From Clavelina lepadiformis (Eukaryota; Chordata; Ascidiacea; Aplousobranchia; Clavelinidae), in contig NC_135243.1 in NCBI RefSeq assembly GCF_947623445.1, forward strand, positions 5,272,501 to 5,336,500: a stretch of DNA of 64,000 nucleotides. Reading direction: 5' to 3'. Below the pieces are notes generated by a model. That model had not been told where the DNA came from, searched no databases, and saw nothing but the letters and a program-made list of their open reading frames with translations. Shown here piece after piece: positions 19,641-56,698 of the stretch. A program made the translations under genes and the position numbers. The stretch's first letter is position 1. Every line of letters starts with the position of its first letter.

Positions 19641-21206
19641 TTACTTGCCTTTTAAATATGTCATTTGTACCAGATCACCAACATCAATAATTGCCGATAA
19701 TGCATCCTGTATTTGTTTATCAGTGAGGGTTGCCGACAAACAGAACCTTACTCTCGATCCCAACACCGGCGTTGCTGGATATCCTGCGACAACAACGGCA
19801 AAACCACGTTCTAACATTTCCCGACTAAAGCCCAACATTTTGGATGGATAAAAGATCATAACCGGTACTATTGGAGAATCGTCGTTGCCGTACACAATGA
19901 AACCTGCTTTCTTCAGTCCCTGACGAAACATTCTGCAATTTTTAGCTAGTTGTTTGGTTTTTTTCTTTCCTTCTTCGGTGCTAGATAACATGTTGAACAC
20001 AGATATTGCCTGCTGACAGACTGGGGCCGACATGGACGTAGCGTAGCTGGCTATGGCAGAATCTGCTCTTAAATGCTCGATGATGGCTCGACTTCCAGCA
20101 ATAAAACCACCTTGACCTGGAAAGAATTTTGAAAATGTTCCCATTATGACGTCTACTTCTTTTGCATCTATTCCGAAGTAATCAGTTACACCACGAGCAC
20201 GCTTTCCTAGTGCACCCATACTGTGTGCTTCATCAATGTACAAATAGGCTTTGTATTTCTTTTTCAGTGCAACTATTCCAGCAAGATTCGTGATGGAGCC
20301 TTCCATGCTGTACACGCCTTCGACAACTATAAGTATTTTCTTCCAAGGACGATGTGTCCTTGGTTGTCCATAAGCGATTCCATCGCAGAGCTTCTTTTCC
20401 AAATCTTCCATGTTATTATGCTTGAATCGGCGAATGGTAGCATTTGAAAGCTTACAGCCTGTCGCGATTGATGCGTGATTATGTTCATCTCCTAACACGA
20501 GGCAATCCTTGTCAACTAGGCTTGGTATGGTCATCACATTTGTAGCGAAGCCCATGCCGAAACTGATACTCGCTTCTACATCTAAATATTCTGCCACAAC
20601 TTGTTCTAGTTCGGAATGAATGTCCAAGTTCCCCACTTCACGCCTTGGACTACAGATACCAACACCATACTTCTTGGCGGCTTCAATAACTACTTTGGTG
20701 GACTTGCCTTTGTTTTCGGAGATTCCAAGGTAATTGTACGAGCCCAAGTTCACAACATTCTTTAGTATTTTACCGGTATATTTACAGACCCAGCCGGCGT
20801 TTGAGAATTCTCTTTCAACTATATGAAGCACTGCGCCAGGAGCCCGTGCAAGTGGCCTGGTGAGACATTCTATGATACGCATAAATGCGTTTCTGTGATA
20901 AAAGCTTAAAAAATCGTCGTAGAGTGGAGCAAAACCTTTCATTTCAGGGTCTTCAGAGGCAGTAAACACCTTTTCAATTTTGTTTGTACGAAGGAAATCG
21001 CGGATAACGCCGAACAAACCCAAAAACATGTAGTTTACAGACGCAAATATAGATGCAGACAGAGGCATTGGCTCAAAAGTCTCCTGAAATGCACGCACCG
21101 GTCGAACGTGTGGAGAATGTTTCCCATTTGAAACACCATTGGAAACACCATTGGAAACACCATTGGAAACACCATTGGAAACACCATTTTTTGTTACAAC
21201 AGTCAT
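19641..21206 (-). CDS. SPTLC2: Serine palmitoyltransferase long-chain base subunit 2 (intronless)
   Basis: A single uninterrupted frame of 521 residues matches SPTLC2 across the family. It catalyses condensation of serine with palmitoyl-CoA, the first step of sphingolipid synthesis, as the PLP-bearing subunit at the ER membrane. A hydrophobic segment at residues 50-72 fits the membrane anchor. Family landmarks are YGQPRT at 279-284, DEAH at 325-328 and MGTFSK, whose Lys360 is the expected PLP Schiff-base lysine. The C-terminus stops soon after DLVQMTYLKGK, about 40 residues shorter than human. The N-terminus carries tandem GVSN tetrapeptides (residues 8-27), encoded by a 12-bp repeat. The complete lack of introns contrasts with most neighbours and suggests an old retrocopy or intron loss. 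Key residues are intact, so it is probably functional. Confidence 0.95.
   Translation of the reverse strand: MTVVTKNGVSNGVSNGVSNGVSNGVSNGKHSPHVRPVRAFQETFEPMPLSASIFASVNYMFLGLFGVIRDFLRTNKIEKVFTASEDPEMKGFAPLYDDFLSFYHRNAFMRIIECLTRPLARAPGAVLHIVEREFSNAGWVCKYTGKILKNVVNLGSYNYLGISENKGKSTKVVIEAAKKYGVGICSPRREVGNLDIHSELEQVVAEYLDVEASISFGMGFATNVMTIPSLVDKDCLVLGDEHNHASIATGCKLSNATIRRFKHNNMEDLEKKLCDGIAYGQPRTHRPWKKILIVVEGVYSMEGSITNLAGIVALKKKYKAYLYIDEAHSMGALGKRARGVTDYFGIDAKEVDVIMGTFSKFFPGQGGFIAGSRAIIEHLRADSAIASYATSMSAPVCQQAISVFNMLSSTEEGKKKTKQLAKNCRMFRQGLKKAGFIVYGNDDSPIVPVMIFYPSKMLGFSREMLERGFAVVVAGYPATPVLGSRVRFCLSATLTDKQIQDALSAIIDVGDLVQMTYLKGK
21125..21186 (-). repeat. In-frame 12-bp minisatellite in the SPTLC2 N-terminus
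   Basis: About five tandem copies of GGTGTTTCCAAT encode repeated Gly-Val-Ser-Asn. The copies are almost identical at DNA level. This implies recent expansion and probable length variation between individuals. Confidence 0.9.
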
Positions 21207-37953: not shown

Positions 37954-40585
37954 TCAGGGCAAGGTTACACTTTCTGGGATATCACTGATGGTGTAATAAG
38001 AATGACTTATTGCGTTTTTGAGAACCTTCACCACTCTTATACCCGACTGGTCACCTCCAAGCTGAGCACCTAAGGCACTGGACACAACCACTTCAATCTA
38101 TAAAATATCATAAGATATAATTAACGTGAGGATATCACCCGGTGTATTTGTTACATACATTAACATGTGCAAGCAACTGATAATATAAATTTACTAGACA
38201 TTTGTTGAACGTGCAATCATGTTGAACCAGACACACGCAATTAGCATCATATCGGAAAATAAAAAATTATTTTATATAATCACATTTACATATTACATTA
38301 CCTTTGACTGCATTGACCCCTAAGGTAAGTAAACAACAAAGTAACACAACAGCAGATTGACAGCACAACAGATCAACGGCAAGCTTACCTCAACTGAGCT
38401 TCCATCCTGTTTCTGCTCCGTCCAAACGCTACCAGAGTTTCTGTGATAATGCCCTGAAAAGACCTTCTCGACCCCAGCGTGAGAGAATTGCCTCAAAAGT
38501 GCTAATCTTCTGCTGACTGGTATGGAGAAATATGTGTTGCTTTCTTCAAGTGAATCAATAAATGGTGGTATATGCATTAATATAACCACATGCTGGCAAG
38601 ACGAATTTCCTGCTCTGAAAACCATGAAGTATAACCATTTTTAACATTTTAAATAGAACTAAATATGCGTTGATTGATACCAGTGCATATACCTAACTGC
38701 ATTGAATAATTGCACGGCTATGACTTTTATTTGAAACAATAACTCGATTCAGCCTTTTGTCAGAAGTATTGTCAAGTCAGCTTAAATACGGTTTGATAAG
38801 AGTTACATGATTACACGTGTAACACTTTGCAGACAAACCTGTCTAACTCTTTTTGCAACCAAACATCCTGCATAGTGCATAAGCCCTCGGTATAAGTAGA
38901 ATTGAACATACACTGAGAGTTGAGGGCAATGTACATAACGCCGCCGACCCAAAAGGCGTAATAGTCATCTCCAAATTCTTTCTGATAGCTTTCCATTGTG
39001 TCGGGTGTTGGCACATTGCCAAGATCATGATTTCCGCTAATAACGAAAATCGGGATGGAGCTGTTTAGGTATGAGAAAGCCTCTCTGATGTCAGCCTCTT
39101 GTCTTTTTCTCAGTGATTCCCCTACAAAAAAATAAAACGAACATTTAAATTTAGCAGAGATGAAACACAACAGACACAGAATCAATAATACGGCGTTAAA
39201 ATGGCGATTATTTTACTAATAATTTCAAGTTGTAATTTGATTGCGGACAGAAAAAATTTATTTTATGGTAATTACAGTGGTTGATAAATGCGGATAAAAC
39301 ACTCATCATATGTAACCTGCTACTAACATAAACATAAAACTAGATTCTGCAAACTCTTTTCGTTTCAACTACCTGGAAATGCATTTACAATGTCTCCACC
39401 AACAAACAGAAACTTAGGTGGCGGTTTCATGTTATTAATGGCAGTCATTGCATTCCTTGTATTCTCAAGTTCAGTATCCCAACGAGAACCTACAATCATG
39501 GAAATACAACGTTTCAAGTAACTAAAAATGAAGACTGGCCGAAATGCCAAGCAATACTGCCAAATAAAGTCTAAATATTTACATTTCAAAATCGTTAGAA
39601 TTGAATGCCACTTCTCACTGGTTGCAGAATAATAATCATACATATCAGCCATGAAACGACAACAATAGGTACAAAAAGTAAATTATGAAGCAAAAATCAA
39701 TTATTTTAACTTGAAAAGTAAATTAGTATTCGAGTGTTAGGACAAGCAACACAACAGCCTACTGACCACCTACCATCACCTCCTTCTATCATGTCTATCA
39801 AACCAGGCTGAGGATCAGTGGAAAAAATAAAGTAATAAGCTTCTGACCAGGAGCCTTCTTCAGCTAAAGATGAAAGAAGTTTGATAAAAATACACTTTTT
39901 TTCATGGATTACAGAATCATGTACCGTATTTACTCGATTGTAAGCCGTAGCTTATAAAAAAAATTTTATCATTATTTTTTGTGGCTTTTGTTTTGTAATC
40001 AAATCGAAACTTTATTTAGCTTTATGATTTTATATTGTTTGTTTGCTACGATTTATCAATAAAATATTTTCCTCTTTTTCTTTTCTGGTATCGTTGTAGT
40101 GAATAGAAAATATATCGCAGAGTCTCAATGTACTGTATGTTCCAGTACAGCATACTGTACTATTACATACAGTTTATAAATAGGGGCAGCCTGTATTACA
40201 TTAGAACTATCGTATGCGGCGTACAATGAAGTGAATACAGCAATTTACAATCATATAGCACATAAAATTCCAAAATCCAATAATGACTTTTTGAAATATT
40301 ATGAGAGGTGGCAGAAGTTTTTACCTTCAGTGTAATGTTCAATTTCTTTCTCGTCAGCTTTTCTGAACTGATTCCCATCCCACGCTCTGGAGCTAGGGAG
40401 AGTGCAAAGATAGAAAAACACCTAAATACAAAAGTTGATGTACTACATGAAAACTGGTTTAAATTTTTTTTACTGAAATATTTGGCGCCCACAAAAAGAT
40501 TAAACGCAACACAATTAAAAATAGGTTTTCATACCAGAGATAGAGTTATGTTTGTAGCAATCAAAGCCGACCTTATTCCAGCCAT
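37954..40585 (-). CDS. CPPED1-like calcineurin-type phosphoesterase with signal peptide (copy A)
   Basis: Seven exons keep phase and give 335 residues: 40535-40585, 40325-40421, 39774-39863, 39373-39489, 38839-39121, 38389-38614 and 37954-38097. Metallophosphatase motifs are in order: STDPQPGL, GGDIVNAFPG, SGNHDLGN, MHIPPF and FSGHYHRN. These match the CPPED1 family, whose human member is a cytosolic protein phosphatase acting on AKT1. This copy differs at its start. Two extra 5' exons encode MAGIRSALIATNITLSLV and FFYLCTLPSSRAWDG, a textbook signal peptide with a likely cleavage near SRA/WDG. I infer entry into the secretory pathway or secretion. The middle exons have exactly the lengths found in copies B and C (90, 117, 283, 226 nt). 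The last exon is 12 nt longer. The 5' exon assignment rests on phase match and composition. Confidence 0.88.
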
Positions 40586-41596: not shown

Positions 41597-43787
41597 TTAA
41601 GGAATATCTCTTATTGCATAATAGTGGTGGGTTATTTCATTTTCTGAAACTTTTACAATTCTTATCCCAGCCTTGTCGCCCTGGTTTCCTATCTGCTTTC
41701 CAATCGAACTAGAAGCCACCACTTCAACCTATAAGGGGGGAAGATGAGTTTATTAATTTTGGAAAACAAAATTGCTTGTGTAAAAGTTTTGTAAAACATT
41801 TTGCTCAAAAAAAAGATATTAATTGAATTAATTAAGAGATAGGATTACTTCTGCATTCCTGAAAAAAAGATAAATCTTACATAATTACTACCAGCAAAAA
41901 AAATGCCAATTTACAAAAACATGTAATGTGTAAAAAGAGAATATAACATTTCAATTATCTAGTACTATTGAAATGTTATCATTAAATCAACACATATTAT
42001 TACATGCATAATTATATATAAATATAATATATTTATTAATACCAGTTGACATCAACTTTTTAACGTTTCCTTATCAGATTTTCTTATATTTATCTACCTT
42101 TGATAAAGATCCATCCGGATTAGTTCTTGTCCAAAACCCACCAGCATTCCTATGATAATGACCTGAAAAAACTTTTTCGATTCCTGCATCAGCAAACTGC
42201 TCCATAAGCTTAAAACGATGCTTCATTGGAATCGCATAACCAGTGTCTTCTTCTTCGGGATTTTTAACAAAAAGTGGTATATGCATGAATAAGACCACGT
42301 GTTTGCAAGAAGAAGACAAGGCACTGTGAAGAAAAAAACATGTGTTTATGCAATTTGTCAAAAAAAATCAAGAAAAGAATGTCAAATAAAATCTAGGTTT
42401 GTATTTAATATACATTTCATCACCAAAACCACCTGTGCAATCAAATTAGAATCAAATCTGCTAAATATGCATGATACACTTAAGTCATAAAATGTGATCA
42501 ATTACATACATTTTCAGCTGTTCTTCAAGCCAAGCTTTTTGGGTTTCATACAAGTTTTCCGTTCCGTCAGGACTGATGATACACTGAGTATTGATGACAA
42601 TATAAAAGATGCCTCCGTACCAAAAGGTATAATATTCATCGCCAAAATCTCTCCTGTACATTTCCATCGTCTCAAGAGTGGGTTTTTGGCCAAGATCATG
42701 GTTTCCACTCACAGCGAATATTGGAATTGAAGTATTTAATTGTGAAAATGCCACCCGTAAATCGCGCAACTGCTCTGACCGATACGGCGTACCTACACAA
42801 ATGAAGAAAAAAATGTCTGCTAATGTAAAAAACTAGTATGCCCAATGCAATGCCAACATATTAGTAACCAGCTATGCTTACACCAAAAACTTCTTTTTTT
42901 TATTAATGATGAATGGTAAATACAACAAACTAATAAGTAATTTATATACCTCACCTGGAAAAGCATTCAGAATATCACCTCCTATAACCAGAAACTTGGG
43001 CTTCGGCTGCATTTTGTTAATGGCAAGTGCCGCTTCTTGGATATTTTTTACTTCTTCATCCCAAAGGGAACCTGTTCAACAACCATAGTGGTAGACCTGA
43101 ATATTGTTTACCATTACTTCACAACTTGTGAAAACAGTGATTAGTTACCATTGCTATACATCAAATAGATGAACAAAAAACTAGTGGTGACGGTAAAAGT
43201 AACATTAATTTCTATAACCTCAATGCTAACTTTTGAGAGGGGTGTCAGTTACAAAACAAAGTGGCACATCTACAGCTAGATACATACACCTACAACAGTG
43301 AGTGGAAGTCAAAGAAACTTGTTGCTGTCAGAATATTTTACTTTAATAAAAATTCAACGAATAAGACTAAGCACATGAGAATAACATACCATCTCCTCCA
43401 TCGTACTGATGTATAAGACCAGGTTGTGGGTCAGCTACAAATACGAATTCATACGACTCTGTCCATCTCCCTTGCTCTTCTGAAACACAAAAAGCAACAA
43501 AACAATGTTATTGAACTCAGCTGAAGAAAATTAATCCCAACACCTTAATTGTTATGGCATGTCTCAATTTTGAAGTCAAATTAATTTTTACTCCAACATC
43601 CACTGGTTATTCGCTAAACAGTTACAAATATGTCGGTCATCTTAACTTTTCTCCAGTCAACCTGGGCAAATCTTCATTGTATTATTTTGGCCTAAGTCGA
43701 TCAGAATTAAATTGACTGACTGTTCCACTCACCTTTGGTGAAACCTGATGCTTCATGGTTTGCAACTTTAACAAATTCATTTGTCAT
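41597..43787 (-). CDS. CPPED1: CPPED1-like calcineurin-type phosphoesterase (copy B)
   Basis: Six exons keep phase and give 300 residues: 43733-43787, 43390-43479, 42955-43071, 42510-42792, 42098-42323 and 41597-41728. The start is MTNEFVKVANHEASGFTK with no signal peptide, so a cytosolic protein like human CPPED1. Motifs are VADPQPGLI, IGGDILNAFPG, VSGNHDLGQ, MHIPLF and FSGHYHRNAGG, which cover the metal-binding Asp, Asn and His residues expected in the family. Copies B and C share the start, all exon lengths and most of the sequence, so they are a recent tandem pair. Which of the two is the closest match to vertebrate CPPED1 cannot be told by eye. Confidence 0.9.
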
Positions 43788-44844: not shown

Positions 44845-47800
44845 TCATTGTGAAGGAATTTCTGCTAACGGGTAATAAGAGTGAGTTATTTCTTTTTCCA
44901 AAACCCTCACGACTCTGACACCAGCCTTGTCTTGACCCAGCTGTTGGCCCAGGGAGCTAGACGCTACCACTTCAACCTAAAAACAAACAAAGGAAAACTT
45001 AAGAAACCTTTTATTAATGGTTAATATAGGTTCAGCAATGTTCGTGTTCAAAATTGTATAATGGCAATAAATATCTTATTGCGCGGAACTAAGATAATAA
45101 TTGTATTTGTATCTAACTACTTCGCAACATATTTCCGAATATCTCCTGTTCAAGCGCGATATGATATTAAAAACAACGAGATTTTTAAATAAAAACTATT
45201 TGTATTTCCCACCGACCTTAACTAGACATAATTTGAGGTTATCAAAAAAAGATATATAATTCCTATGTCAAATTTCAGACGTAAATCAAGTTGTATAAAC
45301 TTTGAGATGTCTTAATATGAACAACACAAATCATGACTCATTGATGATTTAATCAATATTAAAGTTAATTTCCGAAATAGTTCAACTTACCTTTGACACA
45401 GACTCGTCAGGATTTTTTCTAGTCCAAACCCCACCGGCATTTCTGTGCAAATGCCCGGAGAAGACTTTTTTGATTCCAGCATCAGCAAATTGCTCAAGAA
45501 GCTTGAAGCGATGGTCCTTTGGGATGGAGAAATAAAAATCAGGTTCATCAGGGTGGTCAGCAAAAGGAGGGATGTGCATGAATAAGACCACATGTTTGCA
45601 TGACGATGACAAAGCCCTACAAAAGTACACGGTAGAAAAAGTTCAAAACTACATATCATTTCAGAAATGACCACAGTTGAACCTTAAAAGAAAACAGAAT
45701 CTAATCATTCCATTAAGGAGGCGTATGGGTGACAAAATAAAATTTCTCTGATTTTATCAGACTCTTACGTAGGGCTTTAAAAACCTGTTTTGACCAATCA
45801 GAGGGCAGCATGGTTGGTGTTGTTTTTTAGCCTGGGAATTCCCCTAGCAGTTGGCTTGTTTGAAAGTTCTGGGTTGAATGCATAAGTAAGTTAAAAATTG
45901 GCATATAAAAAAAGATGCAAATGTGTGTTTTAGGGCCAAAAATCCACTTTTGACTTTGGGCCTATGTGACGGGGATATAGTGATATGTGATTTTTGCCGT
46001 ATTCCAGTATCAATTGAACCTAGATCACATGCAAAATTTCAAGGATCCCCAACGAGCAATTTTCGAGTAATTGCATTTTTAATAATTTTACTACATAAAG
46101 AAATAAGCAATAAAATCGACCTTTTTAAAACCTATACGCCTCCTTAACCTGCTTTTATTATTTGTAAGCAAGTTTGTCAGCAAAATTAAACATAATATAT
46201 ATTAATAACCCTATCAAATGTAGTCTAATTTTTCATAGGGGTTCCCAACTAAATGGGCGAAAGAGAAAGGTAATCATTTAAATGCCAAAGTATTTAACTT
46301 TTGTTGGTTCAATGGAAGTAATGCATTTTATGGAAGCAAGAATGGCGACAACACATCAAAGTGTTTAAGGGTTCAAGGAATAAAAACGATTGGAAACCCA
46401 AAAAGTGCTGCAATTTGCGTTTTGTTTCAGAAGAATAAGAGCATTAACCTACATTTCTAACTGTTCTTCAAGCCAGGCCTCTTGAACTTGATACAAACTT
46501 CCTGTACCATCAGGACTAACAATGCACTGCGAACTGATAACAATATAAAAGACGCCACCAAACCAAAAGGTGTAATATTCATCGCCGAAGCTCTGTCGGT
46601 ATATTTCCATCGTTTTCATAGTCGGTTTGTCATCAAGGTCGTGGTTGCCACTTGCTACAAACATTGGTATCGTAGAGTCTAGTGATGAAAAAGCCTGTCT
46701 CACATCACGCACCTGCTCTGGATGGTATTGTCTACCTGGATTTAATAGACAAAATAAAAGCATGACCTGTACAATATCCAGTGGAAATCATATGCGTTAT
46801 ATTCGTTGATAAACATTAAAACAACAAATCCTTCAACAACTAACCCCCAAAAGAGTCAAACCTAACCATTGCTAGACTCGGGTAATAGCAAAACAGTGGG
46901 TGACTGGCATTATTTGGAGTGAAATAAACAAACAATTGAAAATAACTAATGCATTAATTAAATTATACAGTGCAAAATTACAGTTGATGATAAAAAATAC
47001 GACTAAACCAAACTCCTACGATGTAAAATTACTGCATCATATCCCATTCTTAAAACACTACATCACTCACCTGGGAAAGCATTGGTAATATCACCACCTA
47101 TTAAAAGAAATTTGGGTCTCGGCTGCATTTTGTTGATTGCAGTAACCGCTTCATTCATGTTTAATATTTCCGCTTGCCATTTAGAACCTTTCACAAAATG
47201 TATCAAGTGGTGTTAAAAATGTTAGCTAGCTACTGATAGGTAAATATATATAATATGAAATATCACAAAAATTGTCCTCATACGAACTGCAGTGGAAGCT
47301 GGTGTACTCGAAGCTGCAGGAGTTGTTAAGATACTTTGATTAATTAAATTTCTATTGTATTGTTACATACACATTGTTACATGGAAATCTGTACCATACG
47401 TTACACAATACATATACAATATATATATATATATATATAGATATATAATGTTAGTAACAAACTGCATTCTTTACATATATATATATATATGTGTGTATGT
47501 GTGACATATAATGTACATATAAAAATTAGGTAAAATTGACATTAATTTAAAAACACTTTGCCAGCATGAATTAGGTTACTTTGAGTCATTTAAAATTTTG
47601 AGTTTACGAATTACACTGTGTATATATATATTTGCAATACACAATAGAACCACATACCGTCGCCTTTATGACAAACATCTATCAAACCAGGTTGTGGGTC
47701 GGCGATAAATATGAACTTGTACGGCTCTACCCACTTTCCTTGCTCATCTGTAAATTTTAATTTGCAATTTGTATAATTGACAATACAATTTGCATGATAA

Positions 47801-50319: not shown

Positions 50320-51360
50320 GATGGAATAAATACTGATACCTAATAAAGTATAGTAGCCTATGCTAGGCTATATATAAAAAACACAAGTAGGTTACATAAT
50401 TTTTTTGCTTGACCAAGCATTGATAGTTATTGACTTATTGTATTGACACTAAACTTACGTTATAAGCCAATCAATTTCTCAGGACTCCTAGATTTGAAAA
50501 TAAGTTGGCGCAATACTTTTTTAGACTATACAAACTTGTACTAAATAGAGCTATAAATAGCTCCATGATTGTACATGTAATTTCTCTCGCAAAACAAAAA
50601 AATTTCCAACCTTGTGACACTAACATCTAACTTAGTCAACAAGACCAGTAGGTTTAAAGCCCTACTTCAATTTGAGGTCGAGCTGAAAACCATTAGTGTA
50701 CCGAGTCGACATGCATGATATGTAGAAAACAACCACAAAATATTTAAATGGACAGGTATATAGTATACAAGTGCACAACCAGATGATGTCACACATTAAA
50801 TAGCTAGGGTCTAGCATACCAAAGCATCTTGTGGATGAGTATTGTAGGCCTATACTAGACCCAAACGGACTTCTTACTCGGGCAGCATCCGTATCAATGT
50901 TGCTGATAGTAGTTTTGTAGGTCTAGGCTACTTTGCAATCATCATTAACGATATTTTTCGCCGTTTAAGCTTAAAAAGGCCAACGAAAATGATAGTCACA
51001 AAAACTCGCTGGTAACAACCAGCACGGTCACGAAGAGGGGTCGTAACTAACCACCTGCCTGGAGGCATGTGTCTCGGATACCTAGCGGTAACAGTGGCAT
51101 GTGTCTTGGATACCTAGCGTTAACAGTGGCATGTGTCTGCGGTAGCATGTTGCAATTGCAACATATTTCATTTTGCTTCATGAAATGGCGAAATTGTCGG
51201 TAAAAACTGCAATATAGCCATATTAACATGTTGCTTTGCAGTGTGTACTTGCCTGATATTTCTAGGTGGAGATGGTAACTTACTTACGGTCACAATCTAT
51301 ATAGTTAGCTCTATTCTGGCAGTGCTTGAGTGCTGCACACACCATCACCGATCTATGATC
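50320..51360. other. Upstream region of RCL1, no gene seen
   Basis: Contains the presumed RCL1 promoter. A minisatellite of about 37 bp, repeated about twice, lies at 51065-51140 (GGCATGTGTCT...GGATACCTAGCG). No exon found. Confidence 0.45.
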
Positions 51361-51870: not shown

Positions 51871-53080
51871 ACCTTTTCGATAAAAAGGCAATACTGGTTC
51901 ACATACCGGGTACCCTTGATCCACCTGGCGTTAGCATACTGCATGTATGAAACTTGCTCGAAAACTCTCCAGTTTTTTTCTATTAAATTCTGAATTTATG
52001 TGTTAATGCTAATTTTCGCCATCGACTTTGAATGTAAAAGATAAATGCTGATTGCCAATAAAAACAGCTCAATGAAATCATCCCCCTTTAAGTGTAATGG
52101 ATCTGAAGAACGCTTTGTCTCATGGAAAAGGTAAAAGGGTTGTTTACGCTTAGGAGGGGTAACCAAAAATGAAGAGATTCTTTTGAATTATGAGGGTATC
52201 TTACCTTAATATTGCCTATTGAATTATCCAACTCTATTGTCGGCCGAAATGATATAATGGTATTAAAAAATACCACCCGAGACGCTACAGATCAATTCAC
52301 GATGAATCCATTAACGGGTGAAATAAAATTACAAGCGCTTAGGCCTTAGAAGGAGTAAATACGAAAAGAAATAGCAAATTTGCAGGCTCGCAAGTTTGAG
52401 TCGTACACTTTCAAGTTTAACACTTTTACATGCCTGTAAATCTAAATATATGTGATAACATGACTTTAGCACATGAACATAATCTGATAAATATACATAA
52501 CAGAGGAATGTCATTAAAACATTGCTTGGAACTTATGAAAACAATATTACAATTACAAAAACAAGACACGGATTTTCCAAAAATTCGTCACGCACACAAT
52601 AAAAACTGCCATTCCGTGGTAAAAATTATTCTGAAGAAAAAGTAGAAAAATTAATTAAAATCATTTTATTCTGAAAAAATTATTCTGAAGAAAAATAGGT
52701 TAACAAATTGATTCAGATTGTAAAACTTTCAAAACTTGTAATTTTGACTTTCCTCTTTTTTTAATTGGATTAAATTATTTTTTTAACGGTTAGAAAACAA
52801 CATTAAAACAACTGACAATGCATAGTCACAAACAACGGTCATAAACTCTTCAAATATTCCATCTCCATTCTAAAACTCCGATTAAGCTATACTGTCAAGG
52901 AGATGCTCATTGTGCTTGCTCATTGTTGTTATAATTTGAACACCTGCGAATAACAAAAATAGGTTTAATAACTATATGACCAATAGATCGGTAGCAGTAG
53001 TTTTTAGGTAATAACTAGTATGAAAAATCCATAAAATGTATTGTTTGTATTAATTGAAGAATTTAGTATAACATATTATT
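51870..53080. other. No gene seen
   Basis: AT-rich DNA with a short direct duplication of AATTATTCTGAAGAAAAA near 52624 and 52678. No exon or complete element. Confidence 0.4.
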
Positions 53081-53210
53081 GGGCTCAGTGGTAGAGCGGT
53101 CACTGGCTCTTAAAAAAGCAAAGTGGGTTTGATTCTCAGTTGGGCTAGCGCTGTAATATCCTTGAGGAAGGTATGGATGACGATTGCTTGTGCAATATAA
53201 AATGAAATCA
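53081..53210 (+). repeat. tRNA-derived SINE
   Basis: The head GGGCTCAGTGGTAGAGCGG fits a tRNA A-box region, and GGGTTTGATTCTC (53125-53137) fits a B box. It is followed by a body with ATATCCTTGAGGAAGG, a motif common behind tRNA heads in animal SINEs. It does not fold as a full tRNA. It lies 35 bp past the stop codon of the next gene, in its probable 3' UTR, in antisense. Confidence 0.65.
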
Positions 53211-53244
53211 GAAAAAAATGTGGTAAACAAATGAAAAAGGAGGG

Positions 53245-56200
53245 TCAATCAGAATTTAAACAAAGGCAAGCTCGGTAACCAGGGTTTGAGTGATGAGGAA
53301 TCATTGCCGGGTTTAAGTCATGAAAAAACAATTCCTCATTCCAAGCATAAAGATTGTGATACCATGTCATAAGCATGCTGCTACCTTGTGCAGAGATATC
53401 TTTCATAGTCTGCAAAGCTTGCCGATCTACTGGGTGAAGACAGTTCGTGACAATGTAATCTGGTTGATGACGATAAGCCTCTAGGAGAGCAGCCCTGTTA
53501 GAAGCATATACCTCGGTGTGTATGCATCTTGAATTGCCTATAACTGGTGGAGGCTCATGACCATATCCACAGATCTAAACATTTACATCTTATAAGCAGC
53601 ACTGACAAAACAAAAGTTTCCGAAAGGTTTTAGTTTAGAAAAATATTGTGGCTAAAAGCAAAAGAATATAGAACACAGAGGAGTCTCAATAACTCAAAGC
53701 TGAAGGGGTTCATCAAATTACTTGAGTTATCTGTTGTTGATGTAATTTAAATTTTACTGTGTATGGGAATTTTACAGAAACTGATCAGGTCGGTAGAAAC
53801 AGAAAGAAATCATTTTTGCATTATCTGAAACCTAAAAATAAAATATTTGAGTTAACAAAGCCTCCACTGTGACTGTCATAAACAAAAAATAAACGTACTC
53901 CTCCATCACGATCAACAATGAACACGTGATCTCTTTGAGAGCGTATTTGGGCTAGAGATCTCAAATAGCTGTGTATGACATCATTCATGCACTCTGCTGG
54001 ATCGTAAATTATAAAACAAAGATTTCTGAGCTGTTTTTCCTCAAAGCTGGAAATGGAACTGGGAGCATGGGACTGGAGCATTAGAGTCATACCAACAATG
54101 TCATCATCCCTTTTCATAAGCCTTAGGAATCAAGTTTTTTAATAGAACAAAATAAAGCCACAATGCAGTTTGAAACATACCAGAAGCACTTTTTTATTAA
54201 CTACTTCTATTAACTATTTTCTGTTGAAAATGTTACCTGATCACATGCAGACTGTCTCTAACTCCAAACAATGTTGTGAGGAATCTGACAATGTCTTTAT
54301 GCTCAAGAATTTGCTTAAGTAGGGCACCATCTACTTTGCTTTGATCGGAGAGTTCATATGTTGAATACTTAAGTTTCGCATCATTTGATGCCAACCTAAC
54401 GATGACATATACATAGCAAGAAACTTTATCAAAGTCAATGTACTGGCTACTAAATGAGAACTGTAAAACAACTATTAATAAAACATAAATTGTATCATAG
54501 TAATCCTACAAGCTACTAAACTTGTTGAGTGACTGATACAGTAATGATTAACTTAATTTTTATACCGTTACACTTTTACTTCTCTACACTTTTAATGCCT
54601 TTAAATATTAAAAATCGGCAAGTGCTGGAATTGCATTTTTAAAGTGTGTGAAAACAACAATTGGAATTAGTTGTGAAATGGTCCTATCTTTAATAATAAC
54701 CTTTAAAATGGGATACAATAAAATAATAAAAGTTTTCAGTGGTGTATAACAAGAACACCTATTGGCTCCACTTTATCAGCTAACTGAATTTATGATAAGT
54801 AACGATTTATAATATATACAATTTGTAATTTATGAATTATGATACAGAAAAAACAACTTAAAAATAAAGAATATCCTCATAAACGTCACTAATGTAACCT
54901 TATTCATTTCCACTCACTTAATAAGTGGAGCTTTTCCAACGTCAAATGCAATTGTCTTAATTTTTGTGTAGTCTTTTATGTTCGCTGTTGTCAGCAAACG
55001 CTCCAATGAAGATAGAAACATGACTCCGAACAAATTGCGCAAAGTTTCTTTAACTCCTTTATGGGCCTCTGAATTTTCGTTACTTGTAACTTTCAAATCT
55101 CCAAACCCTGTTTATTGTAGTGTTTTAAAGATACAGTATACTATGAATAAAAACATTCTACAGCTCCCTTTGGTGGTCAACTTAGCAGGGTTCTACTATA
55201 TGTAATATTTAAGTAGATAACATAATTTAAACTAATGTATTACAAAACTAGTGTATACTTGCAGATTATCTGATTGATCACATGATAATGATGGCTCAGT
55301 AACTGTGTCTAACTAAGTGAGTTATATACCATTTGAATTTAAGCTAGATGATGGTGGGTTTTGGTTCATCTCCACACAAGTGTTTCTAGTATCATCCGTC
55401 CCTAATGAAAGTAGGCTATCTTGAGATGTGTAGTTAAATATTTTACAGAATTGTAAATGGTACATCATAATATCTAAAATGACAACTATGGTTCGAGTGA
55501 ATTTATAAAACAAATTACCTTTACCATATTAATGGCTAATTATACAAACAAAAAGTGTGCAATTGTTAGATAACCAAATTCTATGAGTAGGCTATATGAA
55601 CATGTCTATATACCACGGCAACTTACCAGTAAAATTTAAAGTTGAAGATGATAGGTTCTGCCTTACATTCACGATGGTTGAGCTGGTACTGGTGTTACTG
55701 GTTGCAGCAAAATCACTGAGAGTTTGAATCGGAGTCACGACTGAGTTGGCTGCGTTGGTTGCGTATGCTTCTCTTTGTGGGTGTTTGAGTATCGAAACAT
55801 TGTCATCAATTCCTACTTGGAAGACTGACATGTGCTTCAAGAGGAATTCCTTTATAGCCTCAGGAGATGCCTTACCTCCGATTGTTCCAATTATAACGGC
55901 TTGTCCTTCACTTTTCTGACTCAGGTAACCGGCAAGCTGTTTGATATCACAACCCTTTCCTCGTTTAGCATTTATCTTTTCATAAAAATAAGAAACTGTT
56001 TTGCTAACAGCATCGTCCTGAGCATGCTCGCCTGGGTGCTTCTTCAAGGTAACTTGTTGACCATCAACATCAAAGACAAAAGAGTTTCTTTTGAGGAATT
56101 CACAAAAAACAAGAGAATTTGTTGAAGTAATGACATTTTTTACCTCCTTGGGTGCTTGATTCCAATGGCCCGCTAGTTGGGTACATGTTAAGGATTGCTT

Positions 56201-56698
56201 TTCTAAAAATTTCGAAAAATACATCACAGCTTCATAATCATCAGCATTTACCTTTTGCTCAAGAGAAAGAAGGTAAACATTTTCCTTCAACAGAATGAAC
56301 AAATCATCGTTTCGGGCGATAAAATTAACCACGCCCTGTGCCCAGCTTTTGTCAGCTTTAATGTAAGCTGTTGTCGCTTTGTCACATTTTTTCAGAAATG
56401 CCTCTGAATGTATTTCTGAAAATTTCACAAAGTCATTCTCTCCTAAGAAACTTTTCAAAAGCTCTCTAAGCTTTGTCTCATATTGATTCAAACAGACCTC
56501 TTCGTGTTTTATTGTGAATAAATTTGAGCTGGATGTAAGAAAATTATGCAGCTGATCCACAGTTGCAGTTTTCAAATCCTTTGGACAGTTAGGTGGGTCA
56601 GTGGTTGTGGTACAAATGCCCAATAAACTATGGGCATTTGTTGCTCCATTCTTTTTAAGAACATTTACAATGAATTGTCCCCAGGCGTCAGAAGGCAT
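53245..56698 (-). CDS. Winged-helix-like repeats fused to a Ycf45/SpoIIIAA-like ATPase fold with degenerate Walker motifs
   Basis: Six exons keep phase and give 687 residues: 55627-56698, 55330-55419, 54918-55107, 54237-54395, 53899-54121 and 53245-53574. Residues 1-310 hold about four similar units. Each ends in a pattern like FLKRNSFVFDVDGQQVTLKK (200-220) or FLLKHMSVFQV (285-295), and two share an LAG(H/Y) helix. They resemble Egalitarian-type winged-helix domains. Residues 390-687 follow the order of bacterial/plastid Ycf45-R3H ATPases: FDVGKAP, then DDIVGMTL (family EIVGLT), then ICGYGHEPPPVIGNSR (family EIAGDGDIPHPAIGRAR), then LLEAYRHQPDYIV (family MIEAVENHMPEVIV). The P-loop position reads YDPAECMN (543-550) instead of GPPGVGKT, and the Walker B position reads VTNCLHP instead of VIDEIGTE. 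I infer an inactive ATPase fold, perhaps nucleic-acid binding. Function unknown. Confidence 0.65.

Follow-up and report, generated by a model that had tools for sequence, protein, structure and literature searches.

In a 64,000-nucleotide (nt) window of the genome of the ascidian Clavelina lepadiformis (chromosome 4, C4:5272501-5336500), we analyzed a minus-strand gene, modeled here with seven exons at window positions 52882-56698 and 661 amino acids. Its predicted product carries Egalitarian-type winged-helix domains (EDs) at the N-terminal end and a degenerate ATPase domain of the Ycf45/SpoIIIAA type at the C-terminal end. A sequence-only reading of this stretch had proposed a pseudo-ATPase behind RNA-binding-type domains; both halves of that proposal are supported by our sequence analyses, and RNA binding itself is what we infer from them. 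Our favored, though tentative, reading is that one nuclear gene encodes three or four EDs, a linker, and a Ycf45/SpoIIIAA-type pseudo-ATPase that together would act as an RNA-binding scaffold. No such protein appears in the titles and abstracts of the searched literature; subscription papers and animal protein databases may hold annotated relatives.

Egalitarian-type domains in the N-terminal part

When the predicted protein was compared with Pfam, WH_Egal (PF23713; gathering score 27) matched it over three stretches with 99.3 bits (E 1.7e-28). The individual units are as follows.

56480..56677, minus strand: winged-helix unit 1, residues 8-73, WH_Egal; E 4.5e-5 and 24.3 bits alone, under the gathering score
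56246..56482, minus strand: possible winged-helix unit 2, residues 73-151, marginal; no Pfam match, weak leave-one-out support
56039..56236, minus strand: winged-helix unit 3, residues 155-220, WH_Egal; E 8.1e-13 alone, E 2.5e-10 in the genome search
55787..56002, minus strand: winged-helix unit 4, residues 233-304, WH_Egal; E 8.8e-9 alone, E 2.3e-6 in the genome search

In leave-one-out profiles, where each unit was compared with the other three, 1, 37, 0, and 0 of 5000 shuffles matched units 1 to 4, respectively. On the basis of the single-unit Pfam scans and these shuffles, we regard three units as sure and one as possible. About four winged-helix units had been read in the N-terminal 310 residues; three of them stand by Pfam, while the fourth (residues 73-151) is marginal. 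A profile built from all four units was then compared with 177,635 distinct PDB sequences, and its sole match at E <= 10 was Drosophila Egalitarian (whole chain E 0.023), with one stretch in each of the three repeats, none significant alone. The Pfam match and this PDB match together bear out the earlier description of the front end as Egalitarian-like. A single winged-helix unit gave no match in the PDB, and neither the 3'-5' exonuclease family PF01612 nor a LOTUS/OST-HTH family was listed by Pfam for the protein at E <= 10. Genes with a PF01612 exonuclease occur elsewhere in the genome (six matches).

An exon-by-exon search of the genome (209 Mb, 95 contigs) placed WH_Egal above the cut-off at this locus only; unit 1 fell below it in that search (E 0.0195). 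A second WH_Egal place on contig C7 was below the cut-off, contained a stop, offered no convincing frame, and was rejected. Matches to YhfP (N-terminal part, E 1.9), eIF3H (E 1.3), and Ribosomal_L6e (below the cut-off) were set aside as noise.

A Ycf45/SpoIIIAA-type domain in the C-terminal part

Judged by profile alignment, exons 3-7 encode a homologue of Ycf45/SpoIIIAA that covers the N-domain and the larger part of the ATPase core. To represent the family, we took the best 80 of 562 confirmed Ycf45 loci, which are bacterial and mostly cyanobacterial, and 63 further relatives that were added by Spore_III_AA from relatives of three of those genomes. The resulting 143 rows hold 140 distinct sequences (L107, L108, and L109 duplicate L079, L064, and L051). 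Against the profile of these 140 sequences, the whole protein scored 24.4 bits (E 6.4e-10 for one sequence) and its C-terminal part alone 28.2 bits (E 4.3e-11 for one sequence), with residues 400-649 aligned in order to profile positions 6-242 across five exons. The best of 20,000 shuffles reached 8.6 bits, the reversed sequence scored -2.0 bits, and the N-terminal part scored -2.4 bits. The C-terminal part, which had been said to follow the motif order of Ycf45-type ATPases, is therefore aligned over both N-domain and core with scores far above shuffles, and an alignment at noise level, named beforehand as evidence against that reading, was not what we obtained (28.2 bits against 8.6), so the reading is not refuted. 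With a narrower profile of the 80 sequences, 1 of 5000 shuffles beat the C-terminal part in its earlier, uncorrected version and none of 20,000 beat the corrected one (the correction is described below). Alignment by hhalign with the 80-sequence alignment gave a score of 42.0 over 191 columns at a probability of 67%, where the best of 300 shuffles scored 30.4.

The C-terminal domain was not detected in the PDB with the single sequence; the purpose-made profile alone detected it. A search of the genome for other Ycf45 genes found none, and because this family search also misses the gene modeled here, further degenerate copies may exist. A scan of viral contigs yielded no relative of the protein. 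For the bacterial domain, a structure model from 49 sequences (predicted local distance difference test, pLDDT, 79.7; predicted template modeling score, pTM, 0.60) is similar to an archaeal RuvB-like helicase and to the ATPases PilT, PilU, DotB, and VirB11 at E 1e-11 to 1e-9. The template modeling (TM) scores of these comparisons are only about 0.4 and the root-mean-square deviations exceed 10 Å, perhaps through a differing placement of the two domains of the model. Among solved chains, PilT (E 0.006) and an AAA family ATPase (E 0.008) come closest by sequence.

Changes at the catalytic motifs

The alignment locates the following landmarks of the ATPase core.

53983..54006, minus strand: degenerate Walker A, YDPAECMN (residues 543-550) for GRPGVGKT; by profile alignment
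53899..53922, minus strand: first part of the Asp-box, FIVDRDGG (residues 571-578), with D574 kept
53527-53574, minus strand: loop ICGYGHEPPPVIGNSR opening exon 6, to residue 594; by profile alignment
53434..53463, minus strand: degenerate Walker B, PDYIVTNCLH (residues 616-625); by profile alignment

In Walker A, the Lys and Thr found in 143 of 143 rows are replaced by M549 and N550, and the three P-loop glycines by Y, A, and C. The replacement of the P-loop by YDPAECMN, already spotted by the earlier reader, is thus confirmed by alignment of residues 543-550 to the family motif GRPGVGKT, and so is the loss of the Walker B acidic pair: the Asp-Glu of all 143 rows is N622-C623. The Glu of the Asp-box (143/143) corresponds to G578 by alignment, and the His of the His-box (143/143) to S650 by ungapped extension one residue beyond the end of the alignment at residue 649. 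The invariance among the relatives partly reflects how they were selected: they were found with motif-carrying queries and profiles, and a GKT filter was applied to the first 80 when the first profile was built. Over profile positions 1-242, there are 70 invariant columns; the protein retains the residue in 26, has another in 41, and is gapped in 3; D443, G445, H501, G514, D574, G581, G583, G591, and R594 are among the residues kept. Taken at the level of residues, the catalytic landmarks are lost, and ATP binding and hydrolysis have presumably been lost with them.

Gene model and its corrected 3' end

The model consists of the following exons.

55627..56698, minus strand: exon 1, residues 1-358, from ATG to the donor GTAAGT; holds every winged-helix unit; codon use positive in the model's frame only
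55330..55419, minus strand: exon 2, residues 358-388, linker; 90 nt, phase 1/1, in-frame skipping possible
54918..55107, minus strand: exon 3, residues 388-451, Ycf45 N-domain; profile alignment, codon use, and splice borders
54237..54395, minus strand: exon 4, residues 451-504, Ycf45 N-domain; profile alignment, codon use, and splice borders
53899..54121, minus strand: exon 5, residues 504-578; end of the N-domain, degenerate P-loop, start of the Asp-box
53385..53574, minus strand: exon 6 (corrected), residues 579-642; ends at the donor AAG|GTAGCA
52882..52943, minus strand: exon 7, starting within the codon of residue 642 and running through residue 661 to the stop; GVQIITTMSKHNEHLLDSIA, degenerate His-box; acceptor tttttgttattcgcag
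52665..52670, minus strand: AATAAA, possible polyadenylation signal about 210 nt past the stop; the hexamer is common in the DNA of the window, which makes it a weak sign

All six introns are GT..AG, all exons are open, and an in-frame stop lies two codons upstream of the model's ATG. Codon use was scored after training on two genes of the window. For exons 1-6 this score is positive in the frame of the model and negative in both others; exon 2, which scores just +0.04, is the least secure internal exon. Contamination is unlikely as the source of the gene, because a gene with introns sits here in a chromosome-scale animal scaffold.

The gene had previously been given six exons, five introns, and 687 amino acids. 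The GT..AG joins of that model are possible, but the end of exon 6 lies at 53385, where it is joined to a seventh exon (52943-52882), and the model therefore has six introns and 661 amino acids. The last 46 residues of the earlier model (642-687) turned out to be intron 6 read through into a dispersed repeat, and the codon-use score of this tail is -0.27 per codon, stop included. When the genome was searched with the 687-residue protein, 69 matches were obtained, six of which are the gene's own exons; the other 63 are confined to residues 622-687, many with internal stops. The repeat, which had been read as coding, is placed as follows.

53214..53379, strand not assigned: dispersed repeat in intron 6, with a shared core at about 53225-53371

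It matches at the DNA level in 14 of 14 copies taken, which jointly cover 53214-53379, and at least 39 other copies have 70-83% identity, one extending to 53100 (40 of 484 candidates scored). It lies 5 to 13 nt beyond the exon 6 donor AAG|GTAGCA (53385/53384). The repeat with its flank (53080-53379) also contains, by eye, a stretch like a tRNA-type B box on the plus strand and may be a tRNA-derived short interspersed nuclear element; ARAGORN found no tRNA in the window.

The acceptor of exon 7 lies 441 nt downstream of the exon 6 donor and opens an exon of 62 nt, which runs to a stop and extends the Ycf45 alignment; the corresponding stretch in relatives is ERGVQLIGTAHGN. This exon was picked by eye with knowledge of the Ycf45 sequence, and a test of AG sites was run afterwards as a check: the sequence after every AG site of the window, counting both strands (6,504 sites), was appended to the domain and scored with the profile. 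The exon 7 acceptor ranked first among the 6,504 with 28.2 bits, the next, at an unrelated place, scoring 26.2; among the 159 AG sites downstream on the gene strand it was again the best (28.2 against 22.1 bits). The exon contributes 6.3 bits, the C-terminal part scoring 21.9 bits without it and 21.2 bits with the earlier ending. A profile of the C-terminal region that is missing from the protein located no further exon in place after exon 7, in a search of low power for short exons. The stretch at about 52190-52290, first read by eye as an exon for the missing C-terminal strands, was dropped. At 52194-52346 on the plus strand, a short open frame looks by eye like the end of a cadherin repeat, with no Pfam match at 0.01.

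Comparison with known systems and a possible role

Drosophila Egalitarian (PDB 9rvy and 13 further entries) likewise has repeated EDs at its N-terminus, followed by an enzyme-like domain. According to passages of a report on this protein (PMC13186709), the second helix of ED1 and of ED2 inserts into RNA minor grooves, ED1 binds BicD as well as RNA, and the EDs of two protomers share one RNA, ED3 being described there as not needed for binding. The same passages state that the EDs have a LOTUS-like fold and that the nuclease-homology domain contacts RNA, with its putative catalytic residues about 15 Å from the RNA and dispensable. In the ascidian protein, a pseudo-ATPase takes the place of the 3'-5' exonuclease homology domain, the three or four EDs stand close together, and the catalytic residues, dispensable in the enzyme-like domain of Egalitarian, have been lost. 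Proteins with LOTUS (OST-HTH) domains, such as Oskar and TDRD5/7, are alike in the fold of the EDs, whereas the ascidian match is to WH_Egal and to no LOTUS family.

The Ycf45/SpoIIIAA family (Pfam Spore_III_AA, PF19568), whose relatives are the PilT/VirB11 secretion ATPases, is known for ATPases that are related to secretion motors and found in bacteria, in plastids, and in a few protists. The ascidian protein shares with it the order of N-domain and core and 26 of 70 invariant positions, including D574, G581, G583, G591, and R594 of the Asp-box loop. It differs in its lost catalytic motifs, its shortened C-terminus, its junction to EDs, and its place as a nuclear gene of an animal. In SpoIIIAA, the same motifs have been mutated, and the ATPase motifs are required according to the abstract of that study (PMC2703783). 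Eukaryotic Ycf45 genes outside plastid-bearing lineages have a parallel among protists, and the closest report in the searched literature, as far as the relevant part of its table goes, is a 2009 listing of Ycf45 in the plastid-lacking Phytophthora ramorum and Naegleria gruberi; that part gives none for the choanoflagellate Monosiga brevicollis and names no animal (PMC3087521).

By analogy with these systems, the ascidian EDs may, like ED1 and ED2 of Drosophila Egalitarian, use their second helix to bind structured (double-stranded) RNA. The dead core of the ATPase could serve as an RNA-contacting clamp or as an oligomerizing scaffold. Such a scaffold would keep the EDs of several protomers close to a single RNA with no need of an ATP cycle. 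The logic would repeat that of Egalitarian, in which a nuclease-homology domain takes part in clamping RNA and can do without its putative catalytic residues. RNA binding and a scaffold role thus remain, for the ascidian protein, a proposal drawn from analogy. A wider and rather doubtful scenario is that an animal lineage captured a bacterial/plastid-type secretion ATPase, which lost its ATP chemistry and was fused to EDs, giving rise to an ATP-independent RNA-recognition scaffold.

If this wider scenario is true, the protein would be a second case, independent of Egalitarian, in which EDs are coupled to a dead enzyme, and it would be evidence that EDs plus a dead enzyme form a reusable design for reading structured mRNA. 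A chordate version without catalytic residues, standing behind domains of the mRNA-localization type, would represent an ATPase turned scaffold, and it would also show EDs joined to something besides Egalitarian's own nuclease-like domain. Localized maternal mRNA is classically studied in ascidian eggs, so a candidate reader of structured mRNA in these animals would be directly testable.

Several points weigh against the reading of one gene for an ED-bearing pseudo-ATPase scaffold. The union of exon 1 and exons 3-7 in one spliced transcript is predicted splicing, and the codon-use score of exon 7 is -0.20 per codon over 20 codons and the stop, a length too short to judge. No information came from a single-sequence structure model of exon 1 (pLDDT 33.6). 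Neither Pfam nor NCBIfam detects the C-terminal domain, and Spore_III_AA is not listed for it at E <= 10. All 5 catalytic columns within profile positions 1-242 are changed, an outcome that random draws give in 8%; with this chance and the many non-catalytic changes, a selective loss of the chemistry is not demonstrated. Finally, the protein stops 11 residues past the His-box position, without the final strands and the C-terminal region that Ycf45 has, and consequently the ATPase core may be incomplete.

Alternative explanations

The alternative that survives best, which we nevertheless regard as unlikely, is that the locus holds two adjacent genes or operon cistrons, namely an intronless winged-helix gene and a separate gene for a Ycf45-like pseudo-ATPase. 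The former would be exon 1 read on to a stop at 55592 (368 amino acids from the ATG), and the latter would start in exon 2, which has an in-frame ATG. Ascidians use operons and trans-splicing. Exon 1 does have its own downstream stop, the Ycf45 match is confined to exons 3-7, and the supposed intron 1 is just 207 nt long; however, exon 1 ends in the consensus donor GTAAGT, the phases fit through exon 2, and intron 1 contains neither AATAAA nor ATTAAA.

Somewhat less probable again is that the protein is the ascidian counterpart of Egalitarian, a dynein cargo adaptor acting via BicD, in which a dead ATPase has replaced the exonuclease-homology domain. The dual binding of BicD and RNA by Drosophila ED1 (in the passages of PMC13186709 cited above) would fit such an adaptor, as would the fact that this is the sole locus with WH_Egal above the cut-off in the exon-by-exon genome search, but the ascidian unit 1 is the weakest of the three units detected by Pfam.

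We consider it improbable that the gene is decaying and its Ycf45 part drifting. Among the 67 aligned invariant residues, 41 are changed, catalytic and non-catalytic alike, a repeat lies about 5-13 nt from the exon 6 donor, and the C-terminus is shortened, all of which would fit decay. Set against this, every exon is open, every intron is GT..AG, and codon use over exons 1-6 is positive in the model's frame only.

Even less credence can be given to a catalytically altered domain that still binds nucleotide through unusual Walker A and B residues. The domain order and several glycines are kept, but Lys/Thr of Walker A, Asp/Glu of Walker B, Glu of the Asp-box, and His of the His-box are all gone together, and the P-loop glycines are now Y, A, and C.

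Chance resemblance to Ycf45 would agree with the silence of Pfam and NCBIfam at E <= 10, and is hardly credible given 28.2 bits against 8.6 in the best of 20,000 shuffles, a match ordered over about 240 profile positions and five exons, and a later-found exon 7 whose acceptor outscores every other AG site in the window as an extension of the match.

Other features of the window

About 2.6 kb downstream of the gene modeled here, on the same strand, lies an Rcl1-type gene (RTC, E 4.9e-59), and between the two is a 32-bp tandem repeat of 2.3 copies (51064-51138). Farther off on the minus strand, three similar exon-sized frames at 38811-39212, 42485-42832, and 46449-46787 look by eye like calcineurin-like phosphoesterases and are probably tandem gene copies; one of them has a Metallophos match below the cut-off (E 0.0046), and the other two have no Pfam match at 0.01. 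An uninterrupted, intronless frame of 520 residues at 19641-21203, also on the minus strand, matches aminotransferase class I/II (E 5.4e-53) and appears serine-palmitoyltransferase-like by eye. At its start, a 12-bp tandem repeat (21124-21188, 5.4 copies) encodes GVSN repeats.

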